Shown: positions 1,356 through 15,449 of the stretch, one piece after another
Numbering within the stretch: position 1 is the first letter of the stretch
How the letters are laid out: each line of letters starts with the position of its first letter
DNA from: Planctomycetota bacterium
GTDB lineage: Bacteria; Planctomycetota; Phycisphaerae; WQYP01
Direction of reading: 5' to 3'
Length of the DNA: 32,608 bases
Assembly: GCA_021805985.1 (NCBI GenBank)
Contig: JAJZDN010000049.1
Coordinates: 1-32,608 of the forward strand
The notes under the pieces: generated by a model
Databases searched by the model: none
What the model saw: only the letters and a program-made list of their open reading frames with translations
What the model was told of the DNA's origin: nothing
Position numbers and translations under genes: made by a program

Positions 1356-1506
1356 CACATGCGTGACGGCGGAGTGTCTCTGTATCCGTATCGGTATTCT
1401 ACGGGTGATACGTTCCAGTTTGGGCCTTATTATGATGATGATTTTCTAATGTGGCTTGAAAAGTAGCGAGAAAGTGACCACTAAGCAAATTATGGAACGG
1501 GCAATT

Positions 1507-4098
1507 ATGAAACGTAATTTGAAGTTGCGACGATTTTTAAAGTGTCGGCTTGGCCGGCGGCTGGTTTGGGCTGCGACTTTATTGCCGTGCTTGATGTTGC
1601 TGGCGATAAGTTCGAACGCGATGGCTATAGGAGGAACGTCTTCCGCTCGTATCGGACCGTTTTATCCGGAGGCTCCGAACGGTATTGCCTTTATTGTGGA
1701 CCACAAGGCTGCGTTTCTTTTGCGTGTCGGCTGGATGCAACATGGGCATCTGGAGGATGGCTATCACGCTTTCGTGGCGGATATGAAAGGGTACGGTCCG
1801 TCCGCGGCCAGCGGCTGGTATAACCGTCTGGCCTGGTACGTGGGTAATACGCGGGTGGAACTTCGGTGGAGCCGGACGGGGCAATCCATTGTGGGCCAAC
1901 TAAAGTCCTCCAAGGCGATTCGAATCGCATTGGAAACCACGCCGTCGTGGCCAGAGTTTCCGGCTCGATATTCCATAACTCGCCAAGGCATCCAAGGCGC
2001 TGGAATGCGGGACAATAAAGTTGTCGCCCGGTGGCGAGTGATCACGGCATCAGCTCCGGCGAACGAGATTACCGCGTCCAGTCATGCCGCATTGGCGAAA
2101 TATATACAGAGTGGTACATCCAACGCCGTCCGCACAGGAACGTATGGCGCGTTGGTATTTAATCTCAAGCCCGGTGCAAGCGTGTATTTTGCCGTCGGAA
2201 CGACGGGGTTGGGCAATCTGAAACATGCAGGCCAAATTCTTGCCCGCGCGCGCCGCCGGTATGACGCTTCGCGCGTTGCCGCCGACGGAACCTGGGGGAA
2301 TTTTCTCAAGCCGATCAACCGGGATTTGAGTTTCGCCCGCGTCTACGGCCCGGCCACCAACATCACCGGCTATCTGGCCATGCGAGGATGGAGTTTGCCG
2401 GCCCGTCAAAATGTGTTCGAATGGGACAGTTTTTTCGCGGCGCTGCAAGGCTCCCTCGCCCATCCGTATCGGAGTCGGCAAACCATTCACCTGGTATTCG
2501 CCGGTCAACGCCGGGACGGCATGCTGCAAAATTATTTGGGAACGCCGAATCGGGCTCAGCCTCCGATCGCGGCGCTGGGCGTGTGGAAACTTTATCAGCG
2601 CGATCCGGATATTGGTTTTCTGCGGCGGATTTACCCCCAGTTGGTAAAATGGCACAACTGGTGGTTTGCCACCAATCCGGCCACCGGACTGCCCTTTCGT
2701 GATGTCAATAAGGATGGCCTGCTGGAATACCGCAACGGGCCGGAAAGCGGCATGGACGACAGCCCGATGTACGACAACGTGCGCGTAGATTCCAAAACAC
2801 AAACCATGGAACTCGATGACGTCGGCCTCAATAGCTTGTGGGCCGCTGATGCCGGATATCTGGCACGCATCGCGCAGGTGATCGGAAAGCCCATGGCCGC
2901 AGCGCATTATTTACATCAGAAAGAAGTGATGGTCCGCCGCATCAACCGTTGGCTGTGGAATCCCAAAGCGGGCATGTACGAAAACCGCTTTTTCAAGCCG
3001 CAGGCGGCGGACCTTCCCATTCCCTGCCGGGCTTACAGTATGGCCGATGGAAAACCCGGTATTCAGGGTCGATACTATCGAGGAGCCGATTTCAATCACT
3101 TGGTATTGACGCGCGTGGATCAGGCGGTGGATTTCAGCTGGTTTTCGTTTCCCCCCGCGCCGGCGTTTGGGGGTCAAATGGCGCTGTCACCCATGAGCGT
3201 GCTCTGGCGGGGATTTCTTACACCGCACCAGAGCGGGGATTACCGATTGGTGCTTAATCTCACGTACCCCTTTGTTCCACACGATCCGCCAGGCTTTCTG
3301 CCTTCGGTCGCGGGTGCCAGATTGTCTGTGAATGGCAAACTGCTCATCAACCATTGGAAAGTTAAGCCGGTAACACGTTATATCAGCCCGGCCATCCATC
3401 TGGCGGCCGGCCATCGCTACGGCATTAAGCTGGAATACCGCCGGCAAAGCGGCGGGGCCATGGTGCAACTGCGCTGGCGGCGCGTCCGAGCGCCCAAACG
3501 CATTTTTTCCACGCAGATTTCGCCCACCAATTTCTACCCCATGATCATCGATGCGCCCACCAAAGTGATGGCGGCCAAGATGCTGGCGCTGCTGCAAAAC
3601 CGGCATACATTTTGGGGGCGTTACGTCATCCCCAGCATACCCCGTGACAACCCGACGTTTCAGCAGCAGGGTTACTGGCGCGGAAAAATATGGCCGGCTA
3701 CCAATTACCTCCTGTTCCAGGGGCTTAAGCGCTACGCCTCGGCCAGCCTTCTGAATCGTTTTGCCGCTAAAAGCGTCGCGCTTTTCATGCGTAACTGGCG
3801 TGCCTCCCATAGTTGGAATGAGAATTACTTTTTTACCGGCCAGGGTTCGGGCGTGCCACATACAACATGGGGGCCGCTGCTTTGCCTGATCGGCCTGGAG
3901 GATATTTGTGACATCCAGCCCGATGGAAAAATTGCCCTCAACGGAACGCTGCAATTTACAGAATGGATTCACCATATCCCCATTGCCGGCCATTTCTATG
4001 ACCTCCACGTCGCGCCGGGGTGTACGCTGCTGTTGCGGCACGGGAAAACCATTCTGGAGGCGAGAAACAAGGTGCTCGTGGGACGTTTCCCCATGTAA
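1507..4098 (+). CDS. GH63/MGH1-like glycoside hydrolase with inserted PA14-like domain
   Basis: Predicted exported (alpha/alpha)6-barrel hydrolase. The ATG at 1507 is chosen over an upstream TTG at 1456: it has GGAACGG 6 nt before it and starts a signal peptide of basic residues, a hydrophobic stretch (ATLLPCLMLLAIS) and an A-M-A cleavage region. An N-terminal beta-rich domain is followed from about residue 270 by a barrel with hallmarks of GH63 and trehalase-like enzymes: FEWDSFF near 303, ESGMDDSPMYDN near 415 (acid region), YWRGKIWPATNYL and WNENYF near 770 (base region). Between about residues 541 and 664 a block resembling PA14 (GFLTPHQSGDYRL, LSVNGKLLINHW, YGIKLEYRRQ) interrupts the barrel; PA14 domains usually bind carbohydrate. 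Substrate is unknown; relatives act on alpha-glucosides, glucosylglycerate or mannosylglycerate. The GH78 gene follows 71 bp downstream, suggesting co-transcription. Confidence 0.8.
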   Translation: MKRNLKLRRFLKCRLGRRLVWAATLLPCLMLLAISSNAMAIGGTSSARIGPFYPEAPNGIAFIVDHKAAFLLRVGWMQHGHLEDGYHAFVADMKGYGPSAASGWYNRLAWYVGNTRVELRWSRTGQSIVGQLKSSKAIRIALETTPSWPEFPARYSITRQGIQGAGMRDNKVVARWRVITASAPANEITASSHAALAKYIQSGTSNAVRTGTYGALVFNLKPGASVYFAVGTTGLGNLKHAGQILARARRRYDASRVAADGTWGNFLKPINRDLSFARVYGPATNITGYLAMRGWSLPARQNVFEWDSFFAALQGSLAHPYRSRQTIHLVFAGQRRDGMLQNYLGTPNRAQPPIAALGVWKLYQRDPDIGFLRRIYPQLVKWHNWWFATNPATGLPFRDVNKDGLLEYRNGPESGMDDSPMYDNVRVDSKTQTMELDDVGLNSLWAADAGYLARIAQVIGKPMAAAHYLHQKEVMVRRINRWLWNPKAGMYENRFFKPQAADLPIPCRAYSMADGKPGIQGRYYRGADFNHLVLTRVDQAVDFSWFSFPPAPAFGGQMALSPMSVLWRGFLTPHQSGDYRLVLNLTYPFVPHDPPGFLPSVAGARLSVNGKLLINHWKVKPVTRYISPAIHLAAGHRYGIKLEYRRQSGGAMVQLRWRRVRAPKRIFSTQISPTNFYPMIIDAPTKVMAAKMLALLQNRHTFWGRYVIPSIPRDNPTFQQQGYWRGKIWPATNYLLFQGLKRYASASLLNRFAAKSVALFMRNWRASHSWNENYFFTGQGSGVPHTTWGPLLCLIGLEDICDIQPDGKIALNGTLQFTEWIHHIPIAGHFYDLHVAPGCTLLLRHGKTILEARNKVLVGRFPM

Positions 4099-4169
4099 GG
4101 CTGGGCCTGTTTGCGGGCGAGCACTGCGGTTTGTATTCCGCTTGGCACATAGCTCAATGGAGTAATCAA

Positions 4170-7094
4170 ATGGGACCGACTCAAACTTATTATAAAAAAA
4201 GAACGTCGAAAACCTGTCTTGGGATGCTGGTTGGCGTGTTAATGTTTCACGATGGGGCCGCAACAGCTGTGGCACCGCAGTCTGCGTTCTTGGCCAGGAT
4301 TCCGCTGAGGGATCGCGTCAAGTCGGTGTCGCCGATCCATAAAGGGTTAATCAACGCCCCGAGCCAACTGCATTGCCAATGGCTGCGCGATCCGTTGGGC
4401 GTGCAGCAATCGCATCCGCGTTTGACGTGGATGCCGCCGCAACGGGATACATTGCGGCACGCAGCGGCCTATCAGATTCATGTGGCCAAATCGCCATCGG
4501 ACCTTGGCGGCGGGCATGATCTGATCTGGGATTCCGGCAAGGTTGCGGAGAATCCCGATTTTCTTCCGGAATATCAAGGTCCCGCCCTTCAGCCGTTCAC
4601 GCATTATTACTGGCGGGTGCGGGTATGGAGTCGTTCGGGTTGGCAATCACAATGGAGCCGTGTGGCTACTTGGATGACCGGACCGTTGAAGGTCGGCGAT
4701 TGGCGGGGAAGTTGGATCAGTTATCAGCATAAAATTAGCAATTCTTTCTACACCACGCCGCATAACGCCTATTACGGCTTGCCGTTGCCGAAGAAGATTT
4801 CCCGTAAAAGTTGGATTCAAAAGGAGCCGTGTCCGATTTTCCGCAAGGTGTTTCGCGCCCCCGCCCGTTTGCGGCATGCTTATATGTATATTGCCGGATT
4901 AGGTTATTGGAAGGTGCTGGTCAATGGCCATAAGGTGGGGCTGGGCGTGCTTTATTCCACGATGTACGATTATTCCAGGACGGTGCCGTATCAGAGCTTT
5001 GATATTACACCGCTGTTGCACAAAGGCCGCCGAAATGTCATTACAATTGCCTTGGGCAACGGCTGGTACAACATCATGGAACGCGATGTGTGGCAATGGC
5101 AAAAGGCCGCATGGCGGGCTTGGCCACGGGCGCGGATGAATTTGTTGCTGCAAACGCCCGGCGGAAAAACAAAGTGGATCGCCACCAACAGCACCTGGCA
5201 GGCTGCGGCCGGCCCACGTCTGGCCGATGGTGTATATAACGGTGAGGTTTATGATGCAGCATTGAAAATTCATGGTTGGAATAATCCGGATCGGGCAATG
5301 CCAACCCTCGCCCATGCCAAAATCGTGGCCGCTCCGACCGGCCGGCTTACATCGCAACTCATGCCGCCCTGTGAAGTGGCGGAACGCCTCGCCCCGGTGT
5401 CCGTCACCGAACCGGAACCGCATGTATTCGTGGTTAAATTTCCACAGAATATGTCGGGGTGGGTTACGCTTACGGCAAAAGGGAAAACAGGTGTTCCGGT
5501 GGTACTCAAGTATGGTGAACGCCTGTTTGCCAATGGCTTGGTCAACCGTAATTCAATATCGGGCTATACATATACCGGTTCATTCCAGGCGGACACCATT
5601 ATCCCGGCCGATGACAAGCCGTTCACCTATCATCCGAATTTTGCGTACAACGGTTTTCAGTATGTGCAGATTAATGGATTGGCGTCGCGCCACGATATTA
5701 TCAGCATTGAGGCGGAGTTTATACATACGGCTTTTCATCGGTCTGGAGCCTTCTGGTGCGGCAATGCGCTCCTGAATGCCATCGCGGACGCTACCAACCG
5801 CAGCTACTGTTCCAACTTCATGGGGTATCCTACGGATTGTCCCACGCGCGAGAAAAACGGTTGGACAGGTGATGCCTGGCTGGCATCCGCTCAGGGCATG
5901 ATGACCTACAACAATCAACTGGGCTATGCCAAGTGGCTCAATGATTTTAAGGACCAAGAGCAACCCGGCGGGCAGCTTTATGATATCATTCCATCGCCGG
6001 GCTGGGGTAATGTCAATATTCCGAACTGGGAGTGCGCTTATGAGTTTGTTACATGGAACCAATATCTGTATCAGGGTGACGGAGAAATTTTGCGTGAGCA
6101 TTATCCGGGCATAAAAAAATACTTCCTCTATACGCTGGCCATGTATAACACGCTGGCCATGTATAACCACTCCCAGGGGAATCGGTGGCTGCTGGGCGAC
6201 TGGGTCACCAGCAGCTGCAGGCCGTCCTCGGTTTTCTTTACTTCCTCCTGCACCCTGTACCATGAGGCGGTATTGTTGTCCCGCATGGCCGGCGTGCTGG
6301 GCCAAGCCGCTGATGCGCGTACCTTTTCCGCCGATGCCGCAGCCATTCGAAAGACTTTTAACGCCAGATACGATAAGGGAAACGGCCTCTACGGCAACGG
6401 CGGCCAAATCGCCCAAGCCATGCCGCTTTATTATGGTCTAGTGCCGGCCAGCCAGCAGGCTGCGGTGGTTCGCCGTCTGGTGGCGGACGTTCATGCCCAT
6501 CACAATCACCTGGACGTTGGCATACTGGGAGCCAAATGCCTGTTTCGCGTTTTAAGCACCTATGGGCATATCGCCTTGGCCTACCGCGTTGCCACGCAGA
6601 CAACCTATCCCAGTTATGGCCAATGGATACTGCATGGAGCGACCACATTGTGGGAAGCATGGGGTTTAGATCCGGAGTCCATGAATCACATTATGTTCGG
6701 TGACATTCTGGGTTGGATGTACAATGATCTGGTGGGGATTCGGCCTGATTGGCGGTCACCGGGTTTTCGCACCATTCTTATTAAGCCGCATCCAGTACGG
6801 GCATTGCCATGGGCTGGGGCCACATACAACAGCCGATTCGGTACCATCCAAAGCCAATGGCGCTGGCATGGCAAGCAACTGCATATCAACATCATAGTTC
6901 CAGCGGCCAGCTCGGCTGTCGTCACCTTACCGAGAGTTGGGGACGCAAAGGTCATCTGCAACGGCGATCCGTTGCACGCACCGCTTTCCAATGCCGTTGG
7001 CGTCAATGGTATGAAATGGCGTGATGGACAAGCCGTTGTAAGTGTTGGCCCGGGCCATTATCGCTTTATTTACACACCGCATAACCTGCGATAA
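4170..7094 (+). CDS. Alpha-L-rhamnosidase, GH78
   Basis: Inverting exo-hydrolase removing terminal alpha-L-rhamnose from glycans or glycosides, probably exported. The open frame extends upstream into the previous gene, but ATG 4170 has GGAG 7 nt before it and begins a signal peptide (LGMLVGVLMF), giving 974 aa. The N-terminus has the fibronectin-like opening of the family (LHCQWLRDPLGVQQSHPRLTW, AAYQIHVA, IWDSGKV, YYWRVRVWSRSG). The catalytic core has DCPTREKNGWTGDA, in which D, E and D fall at offsets 0, +5 and +12, as in characterised GH78 enzymes, and GATTLWEAW, which supplies the general-base Glu. A C-terminal beta-sandwich follows. A perfect 18-bp tandem duplication at 6132-6167 adds six residues. 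A strong hairpin overlaps the stop codon. Confidence 0.93.
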   Translation: MGPTQTYYKKRTSKTCLGMLVGVLMFHDGAATAVAPQSAFLARIPLRDRVKSVSPIHKGLINAPSQLHCQWLRDPLGVQQSHPRLTWMPPQRDTLRHAAAYQIHVAKSPSDLGGGHDLIWDSGKVAENPDFLPEYQGPALQPFTHYYWRVRVWSRSGWQSQWSRVATWMTGPLKVGDWRGSWISYQHKISNSFYTTPHNAYYGLPLPKKISRKSWIQKEPCPIFRKVFRAPARLRHAYMYIAGLGYWKVLVNGHKVGLGVLYSTMYDYSRTVPYQSFDITPLLHKGRRNVITIALGNGWYNIMERDVWQWQKAAWRAWPRARMNLLLQTPGGKTKWIATNSTWQAAAGPRLADGVYNGEVYDAALKIHGWNNPDRAMPTLAHAKIVAAPTGRLTSQLMPPCEVAERLAPVSVTEPEPHVFVVKFPQNMSGWVTLTAKGKTGVPVVLKYGERLFANGLVNRNSISGYTYTGSFQADTIIPADDKPFTYHPNFAYNGFQYVQINGLASRHDIISIEAEFIHTAFHRSGAFWCGNALLNAIADATNRSYCSNFMGYPTDCPTREKNGWTGDAWLASAQGMMTYNNQLGYAKWLNDFKDQEQPGGQLYDIIPSPGWGNVNIPNWECAYEFVTWNQYLYQGDGEILREHYPGIKKYFLYTLAMYNTLAMYNHSQGNRWLLGDWVTSSCRPSSVFFTSSCTLYHEAVLLSRMAGVLGQAADARTFSADAAAIRKTFNARYDKGNGLYGNGGQIAQAMPLYYGLVPASQQAAVVRRLVADVHAHHNHLDVGILGAKCLFRVLSTYGHIALAYRVATQTTYPSYGQWILHGATTLWEAWGLDPESMNHIMFGDILGWMYNDLVGIRPDWRSPGFRTILIKPHPVRALPWAGATYNSRFGTIQSQWRWHGKQLHINIIVPAASSAVVTLPRVGDAKVICNGDPLHAPLSNAVGVNGMKWRDGQAVVSVGPGHYRFIYTPHNLR
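6132..6167 (+). repeat. Perfect 18-bp tandem duplication inside the GH78 gene
   Basis: ACGCTGGCCATGTATAAC occurs twice with no spacer, in frame, giving TLAMYN-TLAMYN. The identity of both copies suggests recent slippage or an assembly artefact. It lies in the catalytic domain between the acid motif and the general-base motif, near the start of a predicted barrel helix. Confidence 0.95.
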
Positions 7095-7111: not shown

Positions 7112-7303
7112 TGTTACCATGATGGCTTACCGACGGGTTGGCGACAGCACCTCTTTTTCGTAAGGATAATATTAAATGAGATATTCAGTTGTCAAAAGCA
7201 TGATGTGTGTTGCGGCTCGCCGCGGAGTCATAACAAGGTTTATGGATTGAAATCGGCTGGTGTTGGATCTGGTGGAATCGGGATGAAATAAATGGAGCCA
7301 GTT

Positions 7304-8500
7304 ATGATCAAAACAAAATCATCGCTCGTGACCTGCTTGGGGCAGCCCTCATGGCGTATTTCTAACCGTAACGTTGAGGCCTATGTGACACAGTTCGGCG
7401 GCCATCTCGGCCCGGTCACTTTCCGGTTGGGTGAACGTGATATTAAGCCATTGTCAGTTGCCCCATGGACAACCGAACGTCACGCGCATGGCGTGCCGGT
7501 GGTATTGCGGGCATTACGGGGCGATTTTTTCTGCCTCCCCTTCGGAGGTAATCAAACGCCCTACCACGGAGAGCGCCATCCCGTCCATGGCGAAACCGCC
7601 AACGCCCGGTGGCAGTATGCCGGCATGACCGGTGACAACGGCCGACAGGCGCTTCACCTTCGCCTGTCCACCCGAATCCGTCCGGGACATCTGGACAAAC
7701 TTATCACGCTCATTGACGGGCAGACGGTGGTTTATCAGAAGCACATTATCAGCGGTATGCGTGGACGTATGAACTATGGCCATCACGCCATGCTCCGTTT
7801 CCCCGAACAGGAAGGAAGCGGCATCATTTCCACCAGTCGCTTCACGTATGGCCATGTCTTTACCGAACCGCTTGAGCGCCCGGAAAACCGGGGCTATTCG
7901 ATTCTTGACCCTGGGGCATGCTTTGATCGCCTTGACCGCGTCCCGATGACAACCGGACGGATGACGGACTTAAGCCGTTATCCGGCGCGCCGCGGTTATG
8001 AAGATCTGGTACTTCTGGCGGCGGATACCACACTGTCGCTGGCGTGGTCCGCGGTGACATTTCCGCGTCAGCGGTACGCATGGTTTGCGCTAAAAAATCC
8101 AAGGCAAGTGCCGCAAACGATACTATGGCTGTCCAATGGCGGACGGCATTATGCGCCGTGGAACGGCCGGCATGTCAATGTCCTGGGCCTTGAGGAGGTT
8201 TGCGGTTATTTTCATCTGGGTCTGGCGGAGTCGGCCCGCCGAAATCCACTTTCGTCGCGCGGGATAACCACGTCGCTCGAACTGCATCCGGATCGGCCTC
8301 ACAGTGTTCTCTACGCTTTTGGGGTAGCGCGAATTCCTGTGGGATTTGATCAGGTCACAGACATTGTCGCGGGCGCGGATCGCCATAGCGTGCTGCTGCG
8401 ATCAAAAAATGGGAAGTCCGTAAGCGTCGCCATGGATGGCGCGTTCCTACGGGAGATGATGTCCGGAGCGGCGGAGAGTCCCCCTGCTTCGTGCGGGTAG
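7304..8500 (+). CDS. Aldose-1-epimerase/mutarotase-like protein
   Basis: Beta-sandwich protein resembling galactose mutarotases and related sugar-binding families, 398 aa, with no signal peptide, so probably cytoplasmic. Visible hints are GDFFCLPFGGN near residue 73, HPVHGETAN near 92 (an HG motif of the kind carrying the first catalytic His in mutarotases), NYGHHAMLRFPE further on, and a C-terminal strand pattern. Two starts exist: ATG 7292 and ATG 7304. The second is preferred because GGAG lies exactly 6 nt before it. The likely role is interconversion of anomers of the sugar released by the neighbouring glycosidases, but catalysis is not proven and a purely structural or DUF4432-like role is possible. 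It sits between two glycosidase genes on the same strand. Confidence 0.65.
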   Translation: MIKTKSSLVTCLGQPSWRISNRNVEAYVTQFGGHLGPVTFRLGERDIKPLSVAPWTTERHAHGVPVVLRALRGDFFCLPFGGNQTPYHGERHPVHGETANARWQYAGMTGDNGRQALHLRLSTRIRPGHLDKLITLIDGQTVVYQKHIISGMRGRMNYGHHAMLRFPEQEGSGIISTSRFTYGHVFTEPLERPENRGYSILDPGACFDRLDRVPMTTGRMTDLSRYPARRGYEDLVLLAADTTLSLAWSAVTFPRQRYAWFALKNPRQVPQTILWLSNGGRHYAPWNGRHVNVLGLEEVCGYFHLGLAESARRNPLSSRGITTSLELHPDRPHSVLYAFGVARIPVGFDQVTDIVAGADRHSVLLRSKNGKSVSVAMDGAFLREMMSGAAESPPASCG

Positions 8501-8572: not shown

Positions 8573-10903
8573 ATGTTTGTTCGCAGAGTTAAGACCGTTG
8601 CCATGAAATCGTTAAATTCATGGTTGTTCGCATGGGGCCTGATTGTTTTCGGATTCGCCACCATGGCGGTGGCCGCGCAAAATCCCGTGCAATATGTCAA
8701 TCCCCGTTGGGGCGCCGGTATGGATCGGTTCGCGCATGGCGAGAATCTCGCGGGCCATCAACCGATGCAACCCGGTCTGCATTCGGTTGGAGATATGTAC
8801 CCGGAAATCGCCCTGCCTCGGCCCATGGCCATCTGGGCACCGCAAACCCACACTGGATATTGGTTTTACAATAACCTTGATCCAACCTTTCAGGGCTTTC
8901 GTTGTACGCATGAGGCCCATCCGTGGGCCGGGGATTATGGTCAATTTAACATTATGCCGGAAGTGGGGCCGGTGCAGACCAGCCCGGTCAAGTGGGCCTC
9001 GCCATTTACGCATAAGCGGGAGGTTGCCCATCCCTACAGCTATCGTGTGTATTTGCCGCGCTATCATACCTTGGCGGAATTGGCCCCCACCAAACGCTGC
9101 GCCATTTTCAAATTCACCTTTCCCAAAACCAAGTTGGCGCGAATTGTCATATCGGCCAGGGATGCGACGGTGAAGATTGGACGCCTGGACCATCACCTGG
9201 TAATCATTGGCCATGTCTGGCGGAATTTTGGCGAGGTTCCAAAGAATTTTGCGTGTCGGTTTGTGGCTCAGTTCAGCGGTCGACCGTCCGCGACGAAACT
9301 TTTCAATACCAAAGGCAAACTTATTGGTGTGGTATTGACCTTCAACACCAATCAATCGCGAACGCTGCATATGCGCATTGGCACAAGCTTCATGAGCGTG
9401 CGGCAGGCCGGGATCAGCTTAGGCCGCGAAATTCCCGGCTGGAGCGTCAGAACCGTGGCCGATCAAGCCAAGGCGATATGGAATCGGCAGCTTGGAAAAA
9501 TAGATATTGGTGGGGCGACGGCGAGTCAAAAGGAAATTTTCTATACCAGCCTCTACTGGGTGCTTTTGTATCCGCACAGCTTTTATGAAATCAACGGTCT
9601 CAATCGGCACGTTCATTACAATCCGACCAACGGTAAAGTGTATCCCGGACGGTTTTATACCGGCACCGGATTCTGGGATGTGTATCGCAGCGCATTTCCC
9701 CTGATGACACTGGTATATCGCCATGAGGATGGCCGCATCATCCGCGGCTTCCTGCGGTTTTACAAAGAAGGCGGATGGCTGCCCGAATGGCCCAACCCCG
9801 GCTATTGGAATTGCATGGCCGTAACCGACGCGGATGCGGTCATTGCCGAAGCCTATCTGCAGGGGATTCACGGCTTTAGCCCGTCATTGGCATACGACGC
9901 CATACGCAAGGACGGCACGGTTGAGCCGCCCGGTCCGGGCCACGGGATCCCGCATCTGAAAGATTATTTGCGGCTGGGTTATCTGCCGGCCAACGTCATG
10001 AGCGAGTCGACTTCCACCACGCTGGAAGAGGCGTATGATGATTATGCCATTGCGGAAATGGCCAAGGCCATGGGCAAAACTGCGGATTACAAAAAGTTCC
10101 GCAAGTTGGCGTTTAATTATCGCAATGTGTTTAATCCCGCGACGAAATTCCCCTGGGGCCGGGAGGCCAACGGCTCCTGGCAACCGCACTTTGATCCCAT
10201 TTGGTGGGGCAGTCCCTTTACGGAAGACGATGCCTGGGTCTACCAGTGGATGGTCATGCAGGACCCGTATGGCCTGATTCAGTTGCTCGGCGGGCGTGAA
10301 GCCGCCATCAAGCGGCTGGATACCTATTTCACAACCAACTCAGATTTTCACCTGGGCGGCTATGCAAGTTGGGGCCACCCCATTCCCGAGGAGAACGAGT
10401 CCAAGATATTGGGGATGGGCCAGTATGGCCCCAACAATGAACCCAGCAGCCATGATGCGTCCTTTTATGATTATGTCCGGGAACCATGGAAGACGCAATA
10501 TTGGGCGCGCCAAACCATGGCGCGGGTTTACAGCACCACCGGCATGGTGGGGGATGACGACGAGGGGCAGATGGGGGCATGGTACGTATTTAACACGGCG
10601 GGAATATATCCGTTCTCCCCGATAAAATCGTTTTATCTGCTGGGAAGCCCCTCGGTGGGGCGTGTAGTGCTGCACTTAAAGCAGGGAAAAACGTTCACCA
10701 TTCGGAGCATCGGCAACGGCCCAAAGGATTATTACATTCAGTCCGCGAGACTAAATGGTAAAGCATTTAATCAGCTTTGGATCAAGCAGCGCACGATTTT
10801 ACGTGGCGGCACGCTCGTGTTCCACATGGGGCCGACGCCCAATAAAAAGTGGGCAAGTGACCGTGCCGCAATGCCGCCCGCCGGCGATATGACGCAACCT
10901 TAA
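8573..10903 (+). CDS. Glycoside hydrolase family 92 alpha-mannosidase
   Basis: Exported Ca-dependent inverting exo-alpha-mannosidase, 776 aa. ATG 8573 has GAGGA 5 nt before it and starts a signal peptide (LFAWGLIVFGFATM, cleavage after AVAA). Family motifs appear in order: DMYPEIALPRPMAIWAPQT near residue 74, GFRCTHEAHPWAGDYGQF near 108, GTGFWDVYRSAFPL near 363, WLPEWPNPGYWN, then NNEPSSHD near 620 (equivalent of the GNEP motif around the catalytic acid), PWKTQYWARQ and GDDDEGQMGAWYVF (acidic cluster of the base and metal site). The first motif matches the subgroup with a YPxIALP signature rather than the FPGAxxPFGM form. The linkage is unknown; the family covers alpha-1,2, -1,3, -1,4 and -1,6 mannosides. 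Context suggests it feeds mannose to the downstream porter and isomerase. Confidence 0.92.
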   Translation: MFVRRVKTVAMKSLNSWLFAWGLIVFGFATMAVAAQNPVQYVNPRWGAGMDRFAHGENLAGHQPMQPGLHSVGDMYPEIALPRPMAIWAPQTHTGYWFYNNLDPTFQGFRCTHEAHPWAGDYGQFNIMPEVGPVQTSPVKWASPFTHKREVAHPYSYRVYLPRYHTLAELAPTKRCAIFKFTFPKTKLARIVISARDATVKIGRLDHHLVIIGHVWRNFGEVPKNFACRFVAQFSGRPSATKLFNTKGKLIGVVLTFNTNQSRTLHMRIGTSFMSVRQAGISLGREIPGWSVRTVADQAKAIWNRQLGKIDIGGATASQKEIFYTSLYWVLLYPHSFYEINGLNRHVHYNPTNGKVYPGRFYTGTGFWDVYRSAFPLMTLVYRHEDGRIIRGFLRFYKEGGWLPEWPNPGYWNCMAVTDADAVIAEAYLQGIHGFSPSLAYDAIRKDGTVEPPGPGHGIPHLKDYLRLGYLPANVMSESTSTTLEEAYDDYAIAEMAKAMGKTADYKKFRKLAFNYRNVFNPATKFPWGREANGSWQPHFDPIWWGSPFTEDDAWVYQWMVMQDPYGLIQLLGGREAAIKRLDTYFTTNSDFHLGGYASWGHPIPEENESKILGMGQYGPNNEPSSHDASFYDYVREPWKTQYWARQTMARVYSTTGMVGDDDEGQMGAWYVFNTAGIYPFSPIKSFYLLGSPSVGRVVLHLKQGKTFTIRSIGNGPKDYYIQSARLNGKAFNQLWIKQRTILRGGTLVFHMGPTPNKKWASDRAAMPPAGDMTQP

Positions 10904-11063: not shown

Positions 11064-12629
11064 ATGTCCACCGTGTCTGAAAATTCAGTTACCGCGCCAT
11101 CCGATGAGCCTATTCCGGGCCTTGGGCCGATTGTCTTTGCGGTGTTCGCCGTCGCCATGGCCGGATTGCTTTTTGGGTACGATACCGGTGTGGCGTCCGG
11201 TATTCAGGGCTATCTGCAAAGCTATTTTCATTTAAGCAATACGCAATTGGGCTTTGCCATTGCGAGCCTTGATTTGGGGTGCATCGCCGGTGCCATGATG
11301 GCCGGTACGCTGGCGGATCGCTTTGGCCGTAAAAAAATTCTGATCCTCTGCGCCATTTTGTTTGCCGTTTCCGGCATTCTTTCCGCCATACCGCGCGATA
11401 TAACCGAGTTGGTGCTGGCCCGAGTTCTCGGCGGTCTGGCCGTTGGTGCCTCGTCCATGATCGCACCGGTTTACATTGCGGAAATTTCTCCGGAAAAACA
11501 TCGCGGACGATTTGGTTCGCTTTTCCAACTTGGTATTGTTGTCGGCATCGCGGTGGTCTATTGGGTAAATTACTTCATTCTCAACGCCGGCCACCATATC
11601 AATGCCGGCCACCATCTGGCCGGTATGGATTGGAACCAGACCACGGACTGGCGCTGGATGCTGGGGTCGGAGACCCTGCCGGCTCTCGTGTTTCTTGCCA
11701 TGCTGCTGACCATCAAAGAAAGCCCGCGCTGGCTGATCATCAATGATCGCGAAGCGGAGGCTCGGACCATCCTGACATGTTTTTTCGGCACGGCGCGGGC
11801 GGAAAGGGAAATTTCGGCGGTAAAGGAAGTGGCACAGCAGGAAGAGGGCCGCCTGCGGGAACTATTTACGAGGACCTTTCGATTTCCCTTGCTCATTGCC
11901 CTGTTTCTGGCGGTATTTTCCCAGTTCAGCGGCATCAACTCCATTATTTACTATGCGCCGCGCGTATTCGGCGCGGCGGGCATGAACACCTCCAGTGCCT
12001 TCGGGTCCACGGCCCTTATTCGCATGGTGCTGGTGCTATTCACGTTTATTGCCGTGGCATACGTAGACCGCGCGGGCCGAAAACTGCTGTTAACCATTGG
12101 CACCGCGATTCAAGTGGTGGCGCTGGCATCGGTGGGTCTGTTTTTTGCCGTGGCCCCGAAGGTGCGGGCAATTCATATTCACGATTCGCTCCAATTTCAA
12201 GGAACGCTTTCCAATGCGCGGTTCACCGCCATGGCCCGGTTGTCGCACAGCCCGATCATCATGGCACCGCATTTTACTTCCCTCCAGATTGATATACTGC
12301 TCATAAGCATCTTGGTATTTATCGCCGCGTTCTCCATGGCGATGGGACCGATGCCGTGGATCATCATTTCCGAAATTTTCCCGGCGCGGATTCGCGGTCG
12401 CGCCGCGTCCGTTGGCGTGTTGACCCTTTGGGCGGCAATTTTTGTGGTCGCGCTGACATTTCCCATGCTTAAGGCCAGTGTCGGTCTGACGGTGACTTAT
12501 TTTATTTATTCCGGATGTTCTTTTATTAGCTTCCTTTTTGCGGTGCTGGTGTTGCCGGAAACCAAGGGAAAAACGCTTGAACAAATTGAAACATACTGGC
12601 ATCATAGGTTTGACATTAAGATGTCTTAG
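11064..12629 (+). CDS. MFS sugar porter (sugar:H+ symporter type)
   Basis: Inner-membrane monosaccharide transporter of the major facilitator superfamily, 521 aa, about 12 helices. Sugar-porter signatures are clear: GYDTGVASGIQGYLQ in helix 1, ADRFGRKKIL in the 2-3 loop, GGLAVGASSMIAPVYIAEIS then PEKHRG, KESPRWL after helix 6, FSQFSGINSIIYYAPRVF in helix 7, YVDRAGRKLLL and the C-terminal LPETKGKTLEQIE. An AGGAGA ends 8 nt before the ATG. Two loops are longer than usual: a His-rich duplication NAGHHINAGHHLAG between helices 5 and 6, and about 50 residues with a second His-containing stretch after helix 9. Relatives carry xylose, galactose, glucose or arabinose; the position between GH92 and a D-lyxose/mannose isomerase points to mannose or a related sugar, but substrate cannot be read from sequence. 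Confidence 0.92.
   Translation: MSTVSENSVTAPSDEPIPGLGPIVFAVFAVAMAGLLFGYDTGVASGIQGYLQSYFHLSNTQLGFAIASLDLGCIAGAMMAGTLADRFGRKKILILCAILFAVSGILSAIPRDITELVLARVLGGLAVGASSMIAPVYIAEISPEKHRGRFGSLFQLGIVVGIAVVYWVNYFILNAGHHINAGHHLAGMDWNQTTDWRWMLGSETLPALVFLAMLLTIKESPRWLIINDREAEARTILTCFFGTARAEREISAVKEVAQQEEGRLRELFTRTFRFPLLIALFLAVFSQFSGINSIIYYAPRVFGAAGMNTSSAFGSTALIRMVLVLFTFIAVAYVDRAGRKLLLTIGTAIQVVALASVGLFFAVAPKVRAIHIHDSLQFQGTLSNARFTAMARLSHSPIIMAPHFTSLQIDILLISILVFIAAFSMAMGPMPWIIISEIFPARIRGRAASVGVLTLWAAIFVVALTFPMLKASVGLTVTYFIYSGCSFISFLFAVLVLPETKGKTLEQIETYWHHRFDIKMS
11583..11618 (+). repeat. Imperfect 18-bp tandem duplication in the porter gene
   Basis: Two adjacent 18-mers (11583-11600 and 11601-11618) match at 15 of 18 positions and encode NAGHHI and NAGHHL. 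They form a His-rich loop between predicted helices 5 and 6. Confidence 0.9.
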
Positions 12630-12642
12630 ACATGGAGCAGCG

Positions 12643-13314
12643 ATGCAACGTTCTGAAGTAAACAGCTACCTGAAAGAGGCGATGGTTTTTTTCAAGGCCC
12701 ACGGGTTTTCTCTGCCGCCATTTGCCTGCTGGTCGCCGGAACACTGGGCCACGCTCGGTGCGGCCGGGGATTACATGCGTCAACGCGGTCTGGGGTGGGA
12801 TGTGACAGACCTGGGATCGGGAAAATTTGAACAGATCGGTCTGGTTTTATTTACCCTGCGGAACGGTTTGATCGGCGATCCATCCAAAATGTTTGCCGAG
12901 AAGATCATGATGGTTCGTAAAGACCAGCGTACGCCTTTTCACTTTCACTTCCAGAAAACCGAAGACATTATTAACCGCGGCGGTGGCCATCTGGTCATAG
13001 AACTCTACAATTCCGATCCGCAGGAGAAGTTTGCCTCAACGGATGTAGTGGTGCGCTGCGACGGCCGGGAACGAACGGTTTCCCCCGGCGGCAGTGTGAT
13101 TCTAGAACCGGGGGAAAGTATCACCTTGGTTCCGGGCCTTTACCACTCGTTTTTTGCCACCCATTCGCATACCATGGTGGGTGAAGTATCAAGTGTCAAC
13201 GATGACACAAAGGACAACCGTTTTTACGAACCCTTGCCCCGATTTACGCACATTGACGAAAATCAGCGGCCCTTGTTTTTACTGTGCAGCGATTACAAAA
13301 CGTATTTACCGTGA
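12643..13314 (+). CDS. D-lyxose isomerase family protein (also D-mannose isomerase)
   Basis: Cupin-fold metal-dependent ketol-isomerase of 223 aa, close to the ~228 aa of the enterobacterial D-lyxose isomerase group. Characterised members interconvert D-lyxose/D-xylulose and D-mannose/D-fructose. The diagnostic block FHFHFQKTEDIINRGGGHL (residues 99-117) supplies two metal-binding His (100, 102) and Glu 107; the fourth ligand is probably His 168 in GLYHSFF. ATG 12643 has GGAG 5 nt upstream and lies 13 bp after the porter stop; an upstream in-frame start would run into the porter gene. The stop codon lies 11 nt before the start of the aldolase-like gene, indicating translational coupling. Given the alpha-mannosidase upstream, D-mannose to D-fructose is the most economical role, but D-lyxose or L-ribose activity is equally compatible with the fold. 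Confidence 0.88.
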   Translation: MQRSEVNSYLKEAMVFFKAHGFSLPPFACWSPEHWATLGAAGDYMRQRGLGWDVTDLGSGKFEQIGLVLFTLRNGLIGDPSKMFAEKIMMVRKDQRTPFHFHFQKTEDIINRGGGHLVIELYNSDPQEKFASTDVVVRCDGRERTVSPGGSVILEPGESITLVPGLYHSFFATHSHTMVGEVSSVNDDTKDNRFYEPLPRFTHIDENQRPLFLLCSDYKTYLP

Positions 13315-13325
13315 AGGATTCATTC

Positions 13326-14378
13326 GTGCAAAAAATACTTGATCAGAAACTCGCCGCTCTGGCCACTGACCGATTCGGCAAGCATTTTATTATCGCCGAT
13401 GCTAAAGATGCGGACATGGCCCTGGGAATCGCGGCACCGGGTTTGAATCCCGGCGCGGGGAAAACGGATTTTCCATTTCGTACGCTGGATCAATACCGTC
13501 AGACCATCCGGCAGGTCCTCGAGCAGGGGCTGGTGGATATTATGCTCATGAGTTGCTCCACCAGCGATCAACTGACTATTAGGGAACGACTGTTTGATAA
13601 CAGTATGGTTACCCCCGCGGTTCGGGCAAATGATACTACAGATATACATGTTTGCCGCGGAAGCTCTTACGGAAGCAATCCGTCGCAGCCGTTTGCCTCC
13701 GCGCCCATTGATCATATTCAGGCTGGAAAATCGCCTTGTACCGCTGCGGATCGGCAAAGGGGAGCGAATCTGGGCTTGTATTCGGTGACGTTTAACAATC
13801 TCGCAGAGCCGGATCGGCGCACGCTGGAGGCCTACCGGGATTTTCGCCTGGAGGCCGAGGGTAAAGGCTTTCGGCATTTTCTGGAAGTGTTTGATCCCAA
13901 TGTCTCTCCCCAAACCCACAAACTACCGCCTGACCAGATGGGCGGCTTTATCAATGACCATATCTGCCGGATGCTTGCGGGCGTGCCGCGTGCTTCCCGA
14001 CCGGTATTTTTGAAGATTGTTTACCATGGCCCCCGGTATATGGAAGAACTTTGTCGCTACGACGAGTCGATTATTGTCGGGGTTCTCGGTGGAAGTTCCG
14101 GCACAACGTATGATGCGTTCAAATTACTGGCTGATGCCAAAAAATATGGCGCCCGGGCGGCGCTGTTCGGGCGGAAAATAAATCAGGCCGAGGATCAACT
14201 CACGTTTATCAGCATGTTACGCAACATCGCCAATGACGATATAACTCCCGAAGAAGCCGTGCGGGCTTACCATGGCAAATTAAGCGATGCCGGCATTAAA
14301 CCGCATCGGTGTCTGGCGCACGATCTGCGGCTTACGCAGGGAGTTATGCACTATGCCGCCGGCGGCACGGCGAATTAG
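13326..14378 (+). CDS. Class I aldolase-like TIM-barrel protein, function unassigned
   Basis: A 350-aa protein not assignable to a characterised enzyme. It begins with GTG 13326, which has AAGGA 7 nt before it; a GTG at 13311 overlapping the previous stop lacks this. Features resembling DeoC/LacD-type Schiff-base aldolases are HFIIADAKDADM (residues 20-31), FRHFLEVFDPNVS (182-194), PVFLKIVYHGPRYMEEL (226-242), whose Lys 230 is the candidate Schiff-base residue, IIVGVLGGSSGTTYDAF (249-265), resembling a phosphate-binding loop, and AALFGRKINQAEDQLTF. It sits between a ketol-isomerase and a PfkB kinase, the place expected for an aldolase splitting a phosphorylated ketose into triose units. The aldolase assignment is inference from the motif pattern and context; a non-aldolase TIM-barrel role is possible. 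Confidence 0.6.
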   Translation: MQKILDQKLAALATDRFGKHFIIADAKDADMALGIAAPGLNPGAGKTDFPFRTLDQYRQTIRQVLEQGLVDIMLMSCSTSDQLTIRERLFDNSMVTPAVRANDTTDIHVCRGSSYGSNPSQPFASAPIDHIQAGKSPCTAADRQRGANLGLYSVTFNNLAEPDRRTLEAYRDFRLEAEGKGFRHFLEVFDPNVSPQTHKLPPDQMGGFINDHICRMLAGVPRASRPVFLKIVYHGPRYMEELCRYDESIIVGVLGGSSGTTYDAFKLLADAKKYGARAALFGRKINQAEDQLTFISMLRNIANDDITPEEAVRAYHGKLSDAGIKPHRCLAHDLRLTQGVMHYAAGGTAN

Positions 14379-14414
14379 TCAGGGATGTTTAATAAACAGC
14401 GGGAAATTAAAGCT

Positions 14415-15449
14415 ATGGCCACAACCCCATTCGTCTATGATGTGCTTGGTATCGGGATTTCGGCGGTCGATGATACATTGACCGTGGAACGTTATCCGCT
14501 CTCTGGAGCAAAAGTCCCGGTGCACTCATCGGCCCGGCATGGCGGAGGGTTGGCGTGCACCGCGGTCGCCGCAGTCGCGGCTCTTGGCGGAAAGACTGCG
14601 TTTATGGCGCGTTTCGGAGACGATGAGCTTTCCGAATATATACGTTCCAGCTTATCCAAGCGTGGAGCCGATGTATCACATATTATTTCCGATGCCCTGG
14701 GCCAACCCTATCACAGCCGGATTATCATAGATCGCACTACCGGTGAACGCACCATATTTTATGATCTTAGCCGCTACCAACCCGTGCAGGCTGCGGATGT
14801 GTCTACCGAGCTTTTAGCGTCCGCCCGTGTACTGCTGGTGGATTTCCTCAGTGCCCCCGGCCCGCTGGATCTCATACTCAAGGCCCGCCGAGCCAAAGTG
14901 CCGGTCGTATTGGATATTGAAGGCCAATGCGCAGAGTCTGCAGCGGTGCTGGAACATGTGGACCATCTGGTAGTTCCGGAGGAATTTGCGCGGTGGTCAA
15001 CCGGGCAGCAGGATTTGTGCGCAGCCTGTGCGGCACTGGCGGCCATACCGCGTGCTGGAACCGTCGTAACGGCGGGGGCGGAGGGCTGTTGGTGGACCAA
15101 TTCACCGCAGCGCCCACCGGTGCACTTCCCGGCATTTGCGGTCAAGGCGGTCAATACCAATGGCTGCGGCGATACATTCCACGGTGCCTACGCGCTGGCC
15201 ATTGCGAACAACTTTCCCATCAGGGAAGCCGTATGCTTTGCCAGTGCCAGTGCTGCGATCAAGGCCGCCGGATCCAGCGGCGGTTGGGATGCATTGCCCA
15301 GTGCCGCGCAAGTAACCGGCTTACTAAACCAGCATTTGCAGGCGGATAATCCCTTGCGCAATGTGCTTGGAAGAATTGAACAGTTAAATCTTACGGACGC
15401 AACTTCTGTCCGGGGCCATAGTGGCGTGAATCTGCGTGCGAGCCTGTAA
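14415..15449 (+). CDS. PfkB-family sugar kinase
   Basis: Ribokinase-fold kinase, 344 aa from ATG 14415 (an ATG at 14385 lacks space for a ribosome site). Signature 1 is seen as GGGLACTAVAAVAALGGKTA followed by FMARFGDDELSEY. Signature 2 is VNTNGCGDTFHGAYALAIA, with the catalytic Asp in GCGD and the anion hole before it. A TAGAEGCWW strand precedes it. The NGCGDTFHGAYA variant differs from the usual DTTGAGD of ribo- and fructokinases and is reminiscent of kinases acting on unusual ketoses, such as sulfofructose kinase; this is a resemblance, not an assignment. The gene follows the aldolase-like gene by 36 bp and probably phosphorylates the ketose made by the isomerase (fructose if mannose is the input). 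The last ~35 residues extend beyond the conserved fold. Confidence 0.85.
   Translation: MATTPFVYDVLGIGISAVDDTLTVERYPLSGAKVPVHSSARHGGGLACTAVAAVAALGGKTAFMARFGDDELSEYIRSSLSKRGADVSHIISDALGQPYHSRIIIDRTTGERTIFYDLSRYQPVQAADVSTELLASARVLLVDFLSAPGPLDLILKARRAKVPVVLDIEGQCAESAAVLEHVDHLVVPEEFARWSTGQQDLCAACAALAAIPRAGTVVTAGAEGCWWTNSPQRPPVHFPAFAVKAVNTNGCGDTFHGAYALAIANNFPIREAVCFASASAAIKAAGSSGGWDALPSAAQVTGLLNQHLQADNPLRNVLGRIEQLNLTDATSVRGHSGVNLRASL

Follow-up and report, generated by a model that had tools for sequence, protein, structure and literature searches.

A Conserved Planctomycete Operon with a Class I Aldolase of an Unnamed Family and Its Proposed Route from Mannose through Fructose 1-Phosphate

Introduction

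Which sugar is broken down, and by which route, when an isomerase, a kinase, and an aldolase-like protein are encoded together in a combination of families that matches no named pathway? The question is raised by a 32,608-nucleotide window (the whole stretch of DNA that was analyzed) corresponding to contig C21 of genome G000, a Planctomycetota assembly of 4.68 Mb in 197 contigs. Within the genome collection, it is most closely related to planctomycete metagenome-assembled genomes. Within the window, a sugar porter, a cupin isomerase, an aldolase-like protein, and a PfkB kinase are encoded consecutively at positions 11064 to 15449. We find that these four genes constitute one conserved catabolic operon around an unnamed family of class I aldolases. 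The best-supported model is that the operon serves the breakdown of D-mannose by way of fructose 1-phosphate. We infer every catalytic step of this model and place the probability of the whole at roughly 55%.

The four-gene cassette and its conservation

All four genes stand in the row that had been proposed by a sequence-only reading of the window:

11064..12629, plus strand: major facilitator superfamily (MFS) sugar porter of the XylE-like sugar porter family (PF00083, 346 bits; NCBIfam SP subfamily TIGR00879, 338.7 bits against a cutoff of 237.8)
12643..13314, plus strand: cupin D-lyxose/D-mannose isomerase, ATG start (PF07385, 298 bits)
13326..14378, plus strand: predicted class I aldolase of an unnamed family in the DhnA/LacD superfamily, GTG start (assigned by fold, Foldseek, and hhalign)
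14385 or 14415..15449, plus strand: PfkB-family sugar kinase, ATG start (PF00294, 113.7 bits)

The first two intergenic gaps are 13 and 11 bp; the third is 6 bp if the kinase begins at 14385 and 36 bp if it begins at 14415. For the isomerase and the aldolase, the longer starts offered by the open reading frame finder (12538 and 13284, respectively) run into the preceding genes; starts at 12643 and 13326 are preferred because homologues support them. Promoter and terminator scans gave no more matches than were obtained in shuffled sequence.

The isomerase-aldolase-PfkB block recurs within the genus, across further genera of family f1, and also in the Acidobacteriota; thus, the layout of the cassette is not due to chance. 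The sequence-only reading had suggested a survey of gene neighborhoods, in which a lack of conserved linkage would have told against it; linkage of the aldolase to the isomerase and kinase proved to be conserved across f1 genera and Acidobacteriota. The porter adjoins the cassette in L001/L172 and L134 as well. In the aldolase tree, none of the 25 kinase-linked rows (18 of them also isomerase linked) belongs to a supported clade of 63 rows (SH-aLRT 99), which holds microcompartment-linked or otherwise placed homologues. The f1 cassette aldolases form a single clade (SH-aLRT 99), those of the Acidobacteriota form another group, and no microcompartment homologue occurs within the cassette clades. 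A phylum-wide isomerase search retrieved no cassette outside family f1 among the 10 genomes matched, where the isomerases have other neighbors. Separately, a protein of ~1,500 residues with no Pfam match lies beside the cassette in several f1 genomes (L132:2024-6529, L133:2723-7231, L137:12836-17350, and L138:1-3150).

An unnamed family of class I aldolases

The aldolase has no Pfam match, even at an E value of 10. A match to PF01791 (DeoC/LacD) is likewise absent at E ≤10, with a known DhnA relative scoring 60.5 bits as a control. Weak C-terminal NCBIfam matches were to ADH synthase and archaeal fructose-bisphosphate (FBP) aldolase (PRK07226/FBPA). Searches of PDB sequences, either with the single protein or with its profile, retrieved nothing beyond chance, and only comparison of folds gave solved matches. 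Its AlphaFold model is a high-confidence eight-stranded TIM barrel (pLDDT 89.2, pTM 0.88), for which the best solved Foldseek matches are LsrF, tagatose-1,6-bisphosphate aldolase, ADH synthase, archaeal FBP aldolase, and YihT. Matches to these superfamily members have E values of 4e-9 to 1e-7 at 11 to 17% identity.

Across 88 aligned sequences, conservation reaches 97% or more at 93 positions, including K230 and the GG/GT and GRK stretches. K230 is invariant across the 88 sequences and in A1 and lies on strand 6 (residues 229 to 231) of the model. By hhalign against a relative's DhnA-type aldolase, K230 falls on the lysine of AIKT and GRK falls on GRN (E 2.5e-4). We propose that K230 is the Schiff-base lysine and that the enzyme acts as a ketose-1-phosphate aldolase. 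Judged from its predicted structure, the protein is a divergent class I member of the DhnA/LacD superfamily, filed there by fold and not as PF01791. The earlier label of "aldolase-like" is therefore retained as to aldolase nature and narrowed to the DhnA/LacD class I type by AlphaFold, Foldseek, and K230, with the activity itself a prediction. The family comprises at least 538 relatives in genome contigs from several phyla and has no Pfam, NCBIfam, or PDB sequence entry; a single assay could thus provide a function for a large unnamed family.

Evidence for mannose and the proposed phosphorylation at C1

The isomerase aligns to PF07385 over its full length (positions 1 to 222 of 222), far above the curated cutoff of 20.8 bits, and matches the solved D-lyxose isomerase 3kmh/3mpb, also over the full length (E 1e-61). 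Mannose as the sugar is suggested by the glycoside hydrolase (GH) gene next door:

8573..10903, plus strand: GH92 alpha-mannosidase with an apparent signal peptide (PF07971, 487 bits; TIGR01180, 505 bits, above the cutoff)

This gene ends 160 bp 5' of the porter, and a GH92 gene also adjoins the cassette in L001/L172. Of 11 loci, 8 carry a GH92 or GH38 alpha-mannosidase gene no more than 10 kb from the aldolase (G000, G006, G012, G063, two of G065, G123, and G204), versus 0.37 expected from per-genome counts (P ~1e-10, a value that is overstated; the direction of the enrichment is clear). Further GH families in the vicinity of the cassettes (GH2, GH3, GH5, GH28, GH42, and GH78) differ between loci. 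Mannose, which the sequence-only reading had taken as the simplest choice, is thus supported as the probable sugar by the mannosidases near 8 of the 11 loci.

Among named solved structures, the nearest relatives of the kinase are 2rbc (a sugar kinase of unstated substrate), the sulfofructose kinase YihV (102 bits), ribokinases, and ketohexokinase (56 bits). The GCGD (GxGD) catalytic motif of the kinase, within NTNGCGDTF, aligns with YihV and 2rbc. Both ketohexokinase and YihV are ketose 1-kinases, which we count in favor of the fructose 1-phosphate model. Phosphorylation of the ketose at C1 is our proposal, drawn from the genes for an aldehyde dehydrogenase (ALDH), an APH-family kinase, and an enolase that are linked to the cassette in relatives.

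Linked genes and the proposed route

An ALDH gene lies directly 3' of pfkB in six f1 loci (L132, L133, and L135-L138), and an enolase gene follows the kinase in L134. A close form of the ALDH (≥73% identity) is present in 9 of 17 f1 genomes with the cassette versus 0 of 11 without it (p=0.0035). An enolase variant (at least 55% to that of L134) is encoded by 7 of the 26 genomes that carry the aldolase cassette and by none of the 26 that lack it (p=0.005). In L023, a single strand carries the aldolase, pfkB, the isomerase, a GlcD-like FAD oxidase, the ALDH, the APH-family kinase, and the enolase, with the last three genes overlapping end to start. Other cassette genomes hold a separate ALDH-APH kinase-enolase set (G062) or an APH kinase-enolase pair (G064 and G002), and a cassette-enolase arrangement occurs in G012. 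The APH kinases retain the HGDxxxxN...LDxE motif and may represent a new family of glycerate 2-kinases paired with a dedicated enolase. Tight operons of the ALDH, APH kinase, and enolase genes were observed at L170:7205-11110, L023:16267-20053, L169:9343-11681, and L171:1708-4150.

Families, the aldolase fold, the position of the putative catalytic lysine, linkage, and the enrichment of mannosidases, ALDH, and enolase were computed directly. In the proposed route, the secreted GH92 enzyme would free D-mannose, which the porter would take up as the free sugar. The cupin isomerase would convert D-mannose to D-fructose, and the PfkB kinase would phosphorylate the latter at C1 to give fructose 1-phosphate. 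The aldolase, acting by way of a Schiff base with K230, would then split this product into dihydroxyacetone phosphate (DHAP) and D-glyceraldehyde. In relatives, the linked ALDH would convert D-glyceraldehyde to D-glycerate, the APH-fold kinase would form 2-phosphoglycerate, and the enolase would yield phosphoenolpyruvate (PEP). We infer each substrate and product, as well as the C1 phosphorylation and the glycerate kinase role. Taken together, the ALDH, kinase, and enolase fit a path from glyceraldehyde through glycerate and 2-phosphoglycerate to PEP; an enolase requires a C3 hydroxyl, which is missing from lactate and glycolate.

The sequence-only reading had proposed a fructose phosphate as the intermediate. 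That step is kept and narrowed to what would most likely be fructose 1-phosphate, which is favored because a bisphosphate route needs no ALDH, kinase, or enolase traveling with the cassette. Alternatively, the kinase could yield fructose 6-phosphate, or a bisphosphate could be formed, with the aldolase acting as a fructose-bisphosphate (or fructose-6-phosphate) aldolase that releases glyceraldehyde 3-phosphate. Fructose- and tagatose-bisphosphate aldolases are indeed among the fold relatives, and many PfkB kinases phosphorylate fructose at C6. We nonetheless regard this alternative as rather improbable: a canonical class II FBP aldolase is already encoded in G000 and in most of the cassette genomes tested, the cassette has no second kinase, and the linked ALDH and APH kinase would be left without a role.

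Evidence against the mannose route and the D-lyxose alternative

Several observations weigh against the route from mannose through fructose 1-phosphate. The isomerase scores 258.5 bits to the D-lyxose/D-mannose equivalog of NCBIfam (NF051472), under the cutoff of 350; thus, its sugar is not certified. Three of the eleven loci (G008, G017, and G112) have no mannosidase within 10 kb of the aldolase, the mannosidase of G063 is 9.8 kb off, and the GH92 of G065 was left out of the counts. The mannosidase test was also chosen after looking at the data, CAZyme genes cluster in any case, and the genomes are related. Similarly, the ALDH and enolase counts treat related genomes as independent, and the linkage tests were picked after the data had been seen. 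The operon of the window includes neither the ALDH nor the APH kinase nor the enolase. The window's genome carries the enolase variant on contig C16 (69% to that of G012), where it runs into the contig end, and an ALDH of the family on contig C95 (60%); no close APH kinase orthologue was found in G000, an absence that may reflect an assembly gap.

The enolase itself raises a further difficulty. In the six sequences aligned, the variant carries E168D and H373A (yeast numbering), with the other catalytic residues kept, and it may act on something other than ordinary 2-phosphoglycerate, e.g., L-2-phosphoglycerate or a tetronate. Among the genomes tested, the E168D/H373A clade was seen only in those with the cassette (L134:3294-4643, L143:9878-11155, and L023:18752-20053).

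Finally, a GlcD-type FAD oxidase lies between the isomerase and the ALDH in L023 and G065. Such an oxidase suits glycolate or lactate (D-lactate) better than glycerate and keeps D-lyxose or a deoxy sugar in play. The same chemistry could act on another 2,3-cis aldose, chiefly D-lyxose, which would pass through D-xylulose and xylulose 1-phosphate to DHAP and glycolaldehyde, followed by glycolate and, by way of the FAD oxidase, glyoxylate. A mixed form would be a promiscuous cassette that accepts mannose as well as lyxose (or 6-deoxy-D-mannose). D-Lyxose gives the isomerase family its name, the solved structure nearest to the isomerase is that of a D-lyxose isomerase, and the oxidase together with the ALDH is the exit expected for glycolaldehyde or D-lactaldehyde. 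However, the GH92/GH38 linkage favors mannose, the APH kinase and enolase require an acid with a C3 hydroxyl, and the FAD oxidase is found in two loci only. We consider this alternative unlikely.

Surrounding genes and the L-rhamnose or L-fucose alternative

Farther upstream of the GH92 gene, the window encodes additional proteins of the same neighborhood:

1456..4098, plus strand: GH63/MGH1-like glycoside hydrolase with a PA14 domain (PF22422, 165.6 bits; PF03200, 59 bits; PF07691, 47.9 bits)
4020..7094, plus strand: GH78 alpha-L-rhamnosidase of the same CAZyme cluster, its true start probably downstream of the listed GTG (PF17389, 291 bits; PF08531, 135 bits)
7292..8500, plus strand: 402-amino-acid protein encoded between the GH78 and GH92 genes, unmatched in Pfam and NCBIfam, possibly aldose-epimerase/DUF4432-like

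Downstream, an ordinary ilvD gene lies 161 bp from the cassette (PF00920/PF24877; 856 bits to PRK00911).

Homologues of the aldolase (~60% identity) are found at the end of microcompartment loci of Planctomycetes/Verrucomicrobia (PVM) (PMC4207490, PMC8217296). There, the homologue is accompanied by acetate kinase, ALDH, EutN/CcmL, class II aldolase, and lactate/malate dehydrogenase, none of which is in the cassette. No shell protein or class II aldolase was matched among the window proteins scanned. Outside the cassette clade, most homologues have a C-terminal linker and amphipathic helix (e.g., PDFSKMTxAEK..NLxRWKRILG) that resemble an encapsulation peptide, a tail that is missing in 25 of 25 cassette aldolases. 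Examples are the following:

L063:9983-11278, L079:9995-11359, and L032:9803-11260, plus 63 tree rows: aldolase homologues outside the cassette clade, mostly tailed, many of them at the end of PVM loci

On a different contig of G000 from the window, three consecutive EutN/CcmL vertex genes occur with no PVM enzymes nearby (G000:C116:29753-30652, L113).

PVM-type microcompartments have been shown by experiment to serve L-fucose and L-rhamnose (PMC4207490). The presence of aldolase homologues in such loci, the GH78 rhamnosidase upstream in the window, and a RhaT-like transporter adjoining one acidobacterial cassette all speak for a cassette that breaks down L-rhamnose or L-fucose to DHAP and L-lactaldehyde. 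We judge this to be very unlikely, given that lactaldehyde calls for neither an APH kinase nor an enolase and that GH78 is a clear neighbor in the window alone. In addition, the substrates of the cupin isomerase family are 2,3-cis sugars with a configuration opposite to that of L-rhamnose and L-fucose. In one cassette carrier (G026), a separate rhamnose-type locus combines LutABC-like (LutB-type lactate oxidation) genes with those for an ALDH from another clade, a class II aldolase, and a RhaI-type rhamnose isomerase (492 bits, slightly under the cutoff of 531). RhaA (PF06134) was not found in any of 8 cassette or relative genomes, with positive controls. L-Rhamnose as the substrate was marked down on the basis of the separate locus in G026 and the missing RhaA. 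The rhamnose-type locus at L201:434-7312 has no microcompartment genes and carries a RhaI-type isomerase gene alongside LutAB-like, ALDH, and class II aldolase genes.

A more extensive form of the mannose and fructose 1-phosphate model is possible but doubtful. It holds that the cassette and its linked genes form a complete branch from mannose to PEP built of new or repurposed families: a class I fructose-1-phosphate aldolase of the unnamed family, a glycerate 2-kinase of APH fold, and a dedicated E168D/H373A enolase for the product of that kinase. It also holds that encapsulated versions of the aldolase work inside PVM microcompartments. Direct cleavage of fructose 1-phosphate, if true, would provide roles for the cassette ALDH, the APH-fold kinase, and the altered enolase, as well as a name for an unannotated component of PVM loci.

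Comparison with known systems

The sequence-only reading could name no pathway with this set of families, and comparison agrees: the cassette differs from the sulfo-Embden-Meyerhof-Parnas (sulfo-EMP), rhamnose, fucose, and tagatose pathways. The sulfo-EMP pathway (YihS, YihV, and YihT) is alike in combining an aldose-ketose isomerase, a PfkB C1 kinase, and a DhnA/LacD-type class I aldolase that releases DHAP and an unphosphorylated aldehyde, the corresponding cassette reactions being proposed. The cassette kinase is related to YihV, and in fold comparison the aldolase model matches YihT. In contrast, the cassette isomerase is a cupin of PF07385 and not YihS, no relation to YihT is detectable in the aldolase sequence, and the neighbors are mannosidases, ALDH, and enolase. 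No sulfoquinovosidase, sulfo-sugar isomerase, or sulfolactaldehyde enzyme was found among the annotated cassette neighbors. As a lead, the sulfonate-binding YihV residues N109 and R138 align with Y and L in the cassette kinase.

Fructose 1-phosphate is also formed in Haloarcula hispanica by a PfkB-type ketohexokinase, which has been called the first physiological ketohexokinase in prokaryotes (PMC11519228). If the proposed route is true, the cassette would represent a second prokaryotic use of this chemistry. In the haloarchaeal route, however, 1-phosphofructokinase (1-PFK) phosphorylates fructose 1-phosphate, and FBP is then cleaved (PMC11519228); the cassette has no linked 1-PFK, and direct cleavage is proposed. 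In the literature, which we covered incompletely, no paper was found on direct bacterial cleavage of fructose 1-phosphate tied to a glycerate 2-kinase.

The Hers pathway of animal liver (ketohexokinase and aldolase B) resembles the proposed conversion of fructose through fructose 1-phosphate to DHAP and glyceraldehyde, and its ketohexokinase is a PfkB relative of the cassette kinase. Unlike the Hers pathway, the cassette route would begin with mannose, would use an unrelated DhnA-type aldolase, and would lead glyceraldehyde out through glycerate and 2-phosphoglycerate. If true, direct cleavage of fructose 1-phosphate by the cassette aldolase would give bacteria a counterpart to the fructose pathway of the liver.

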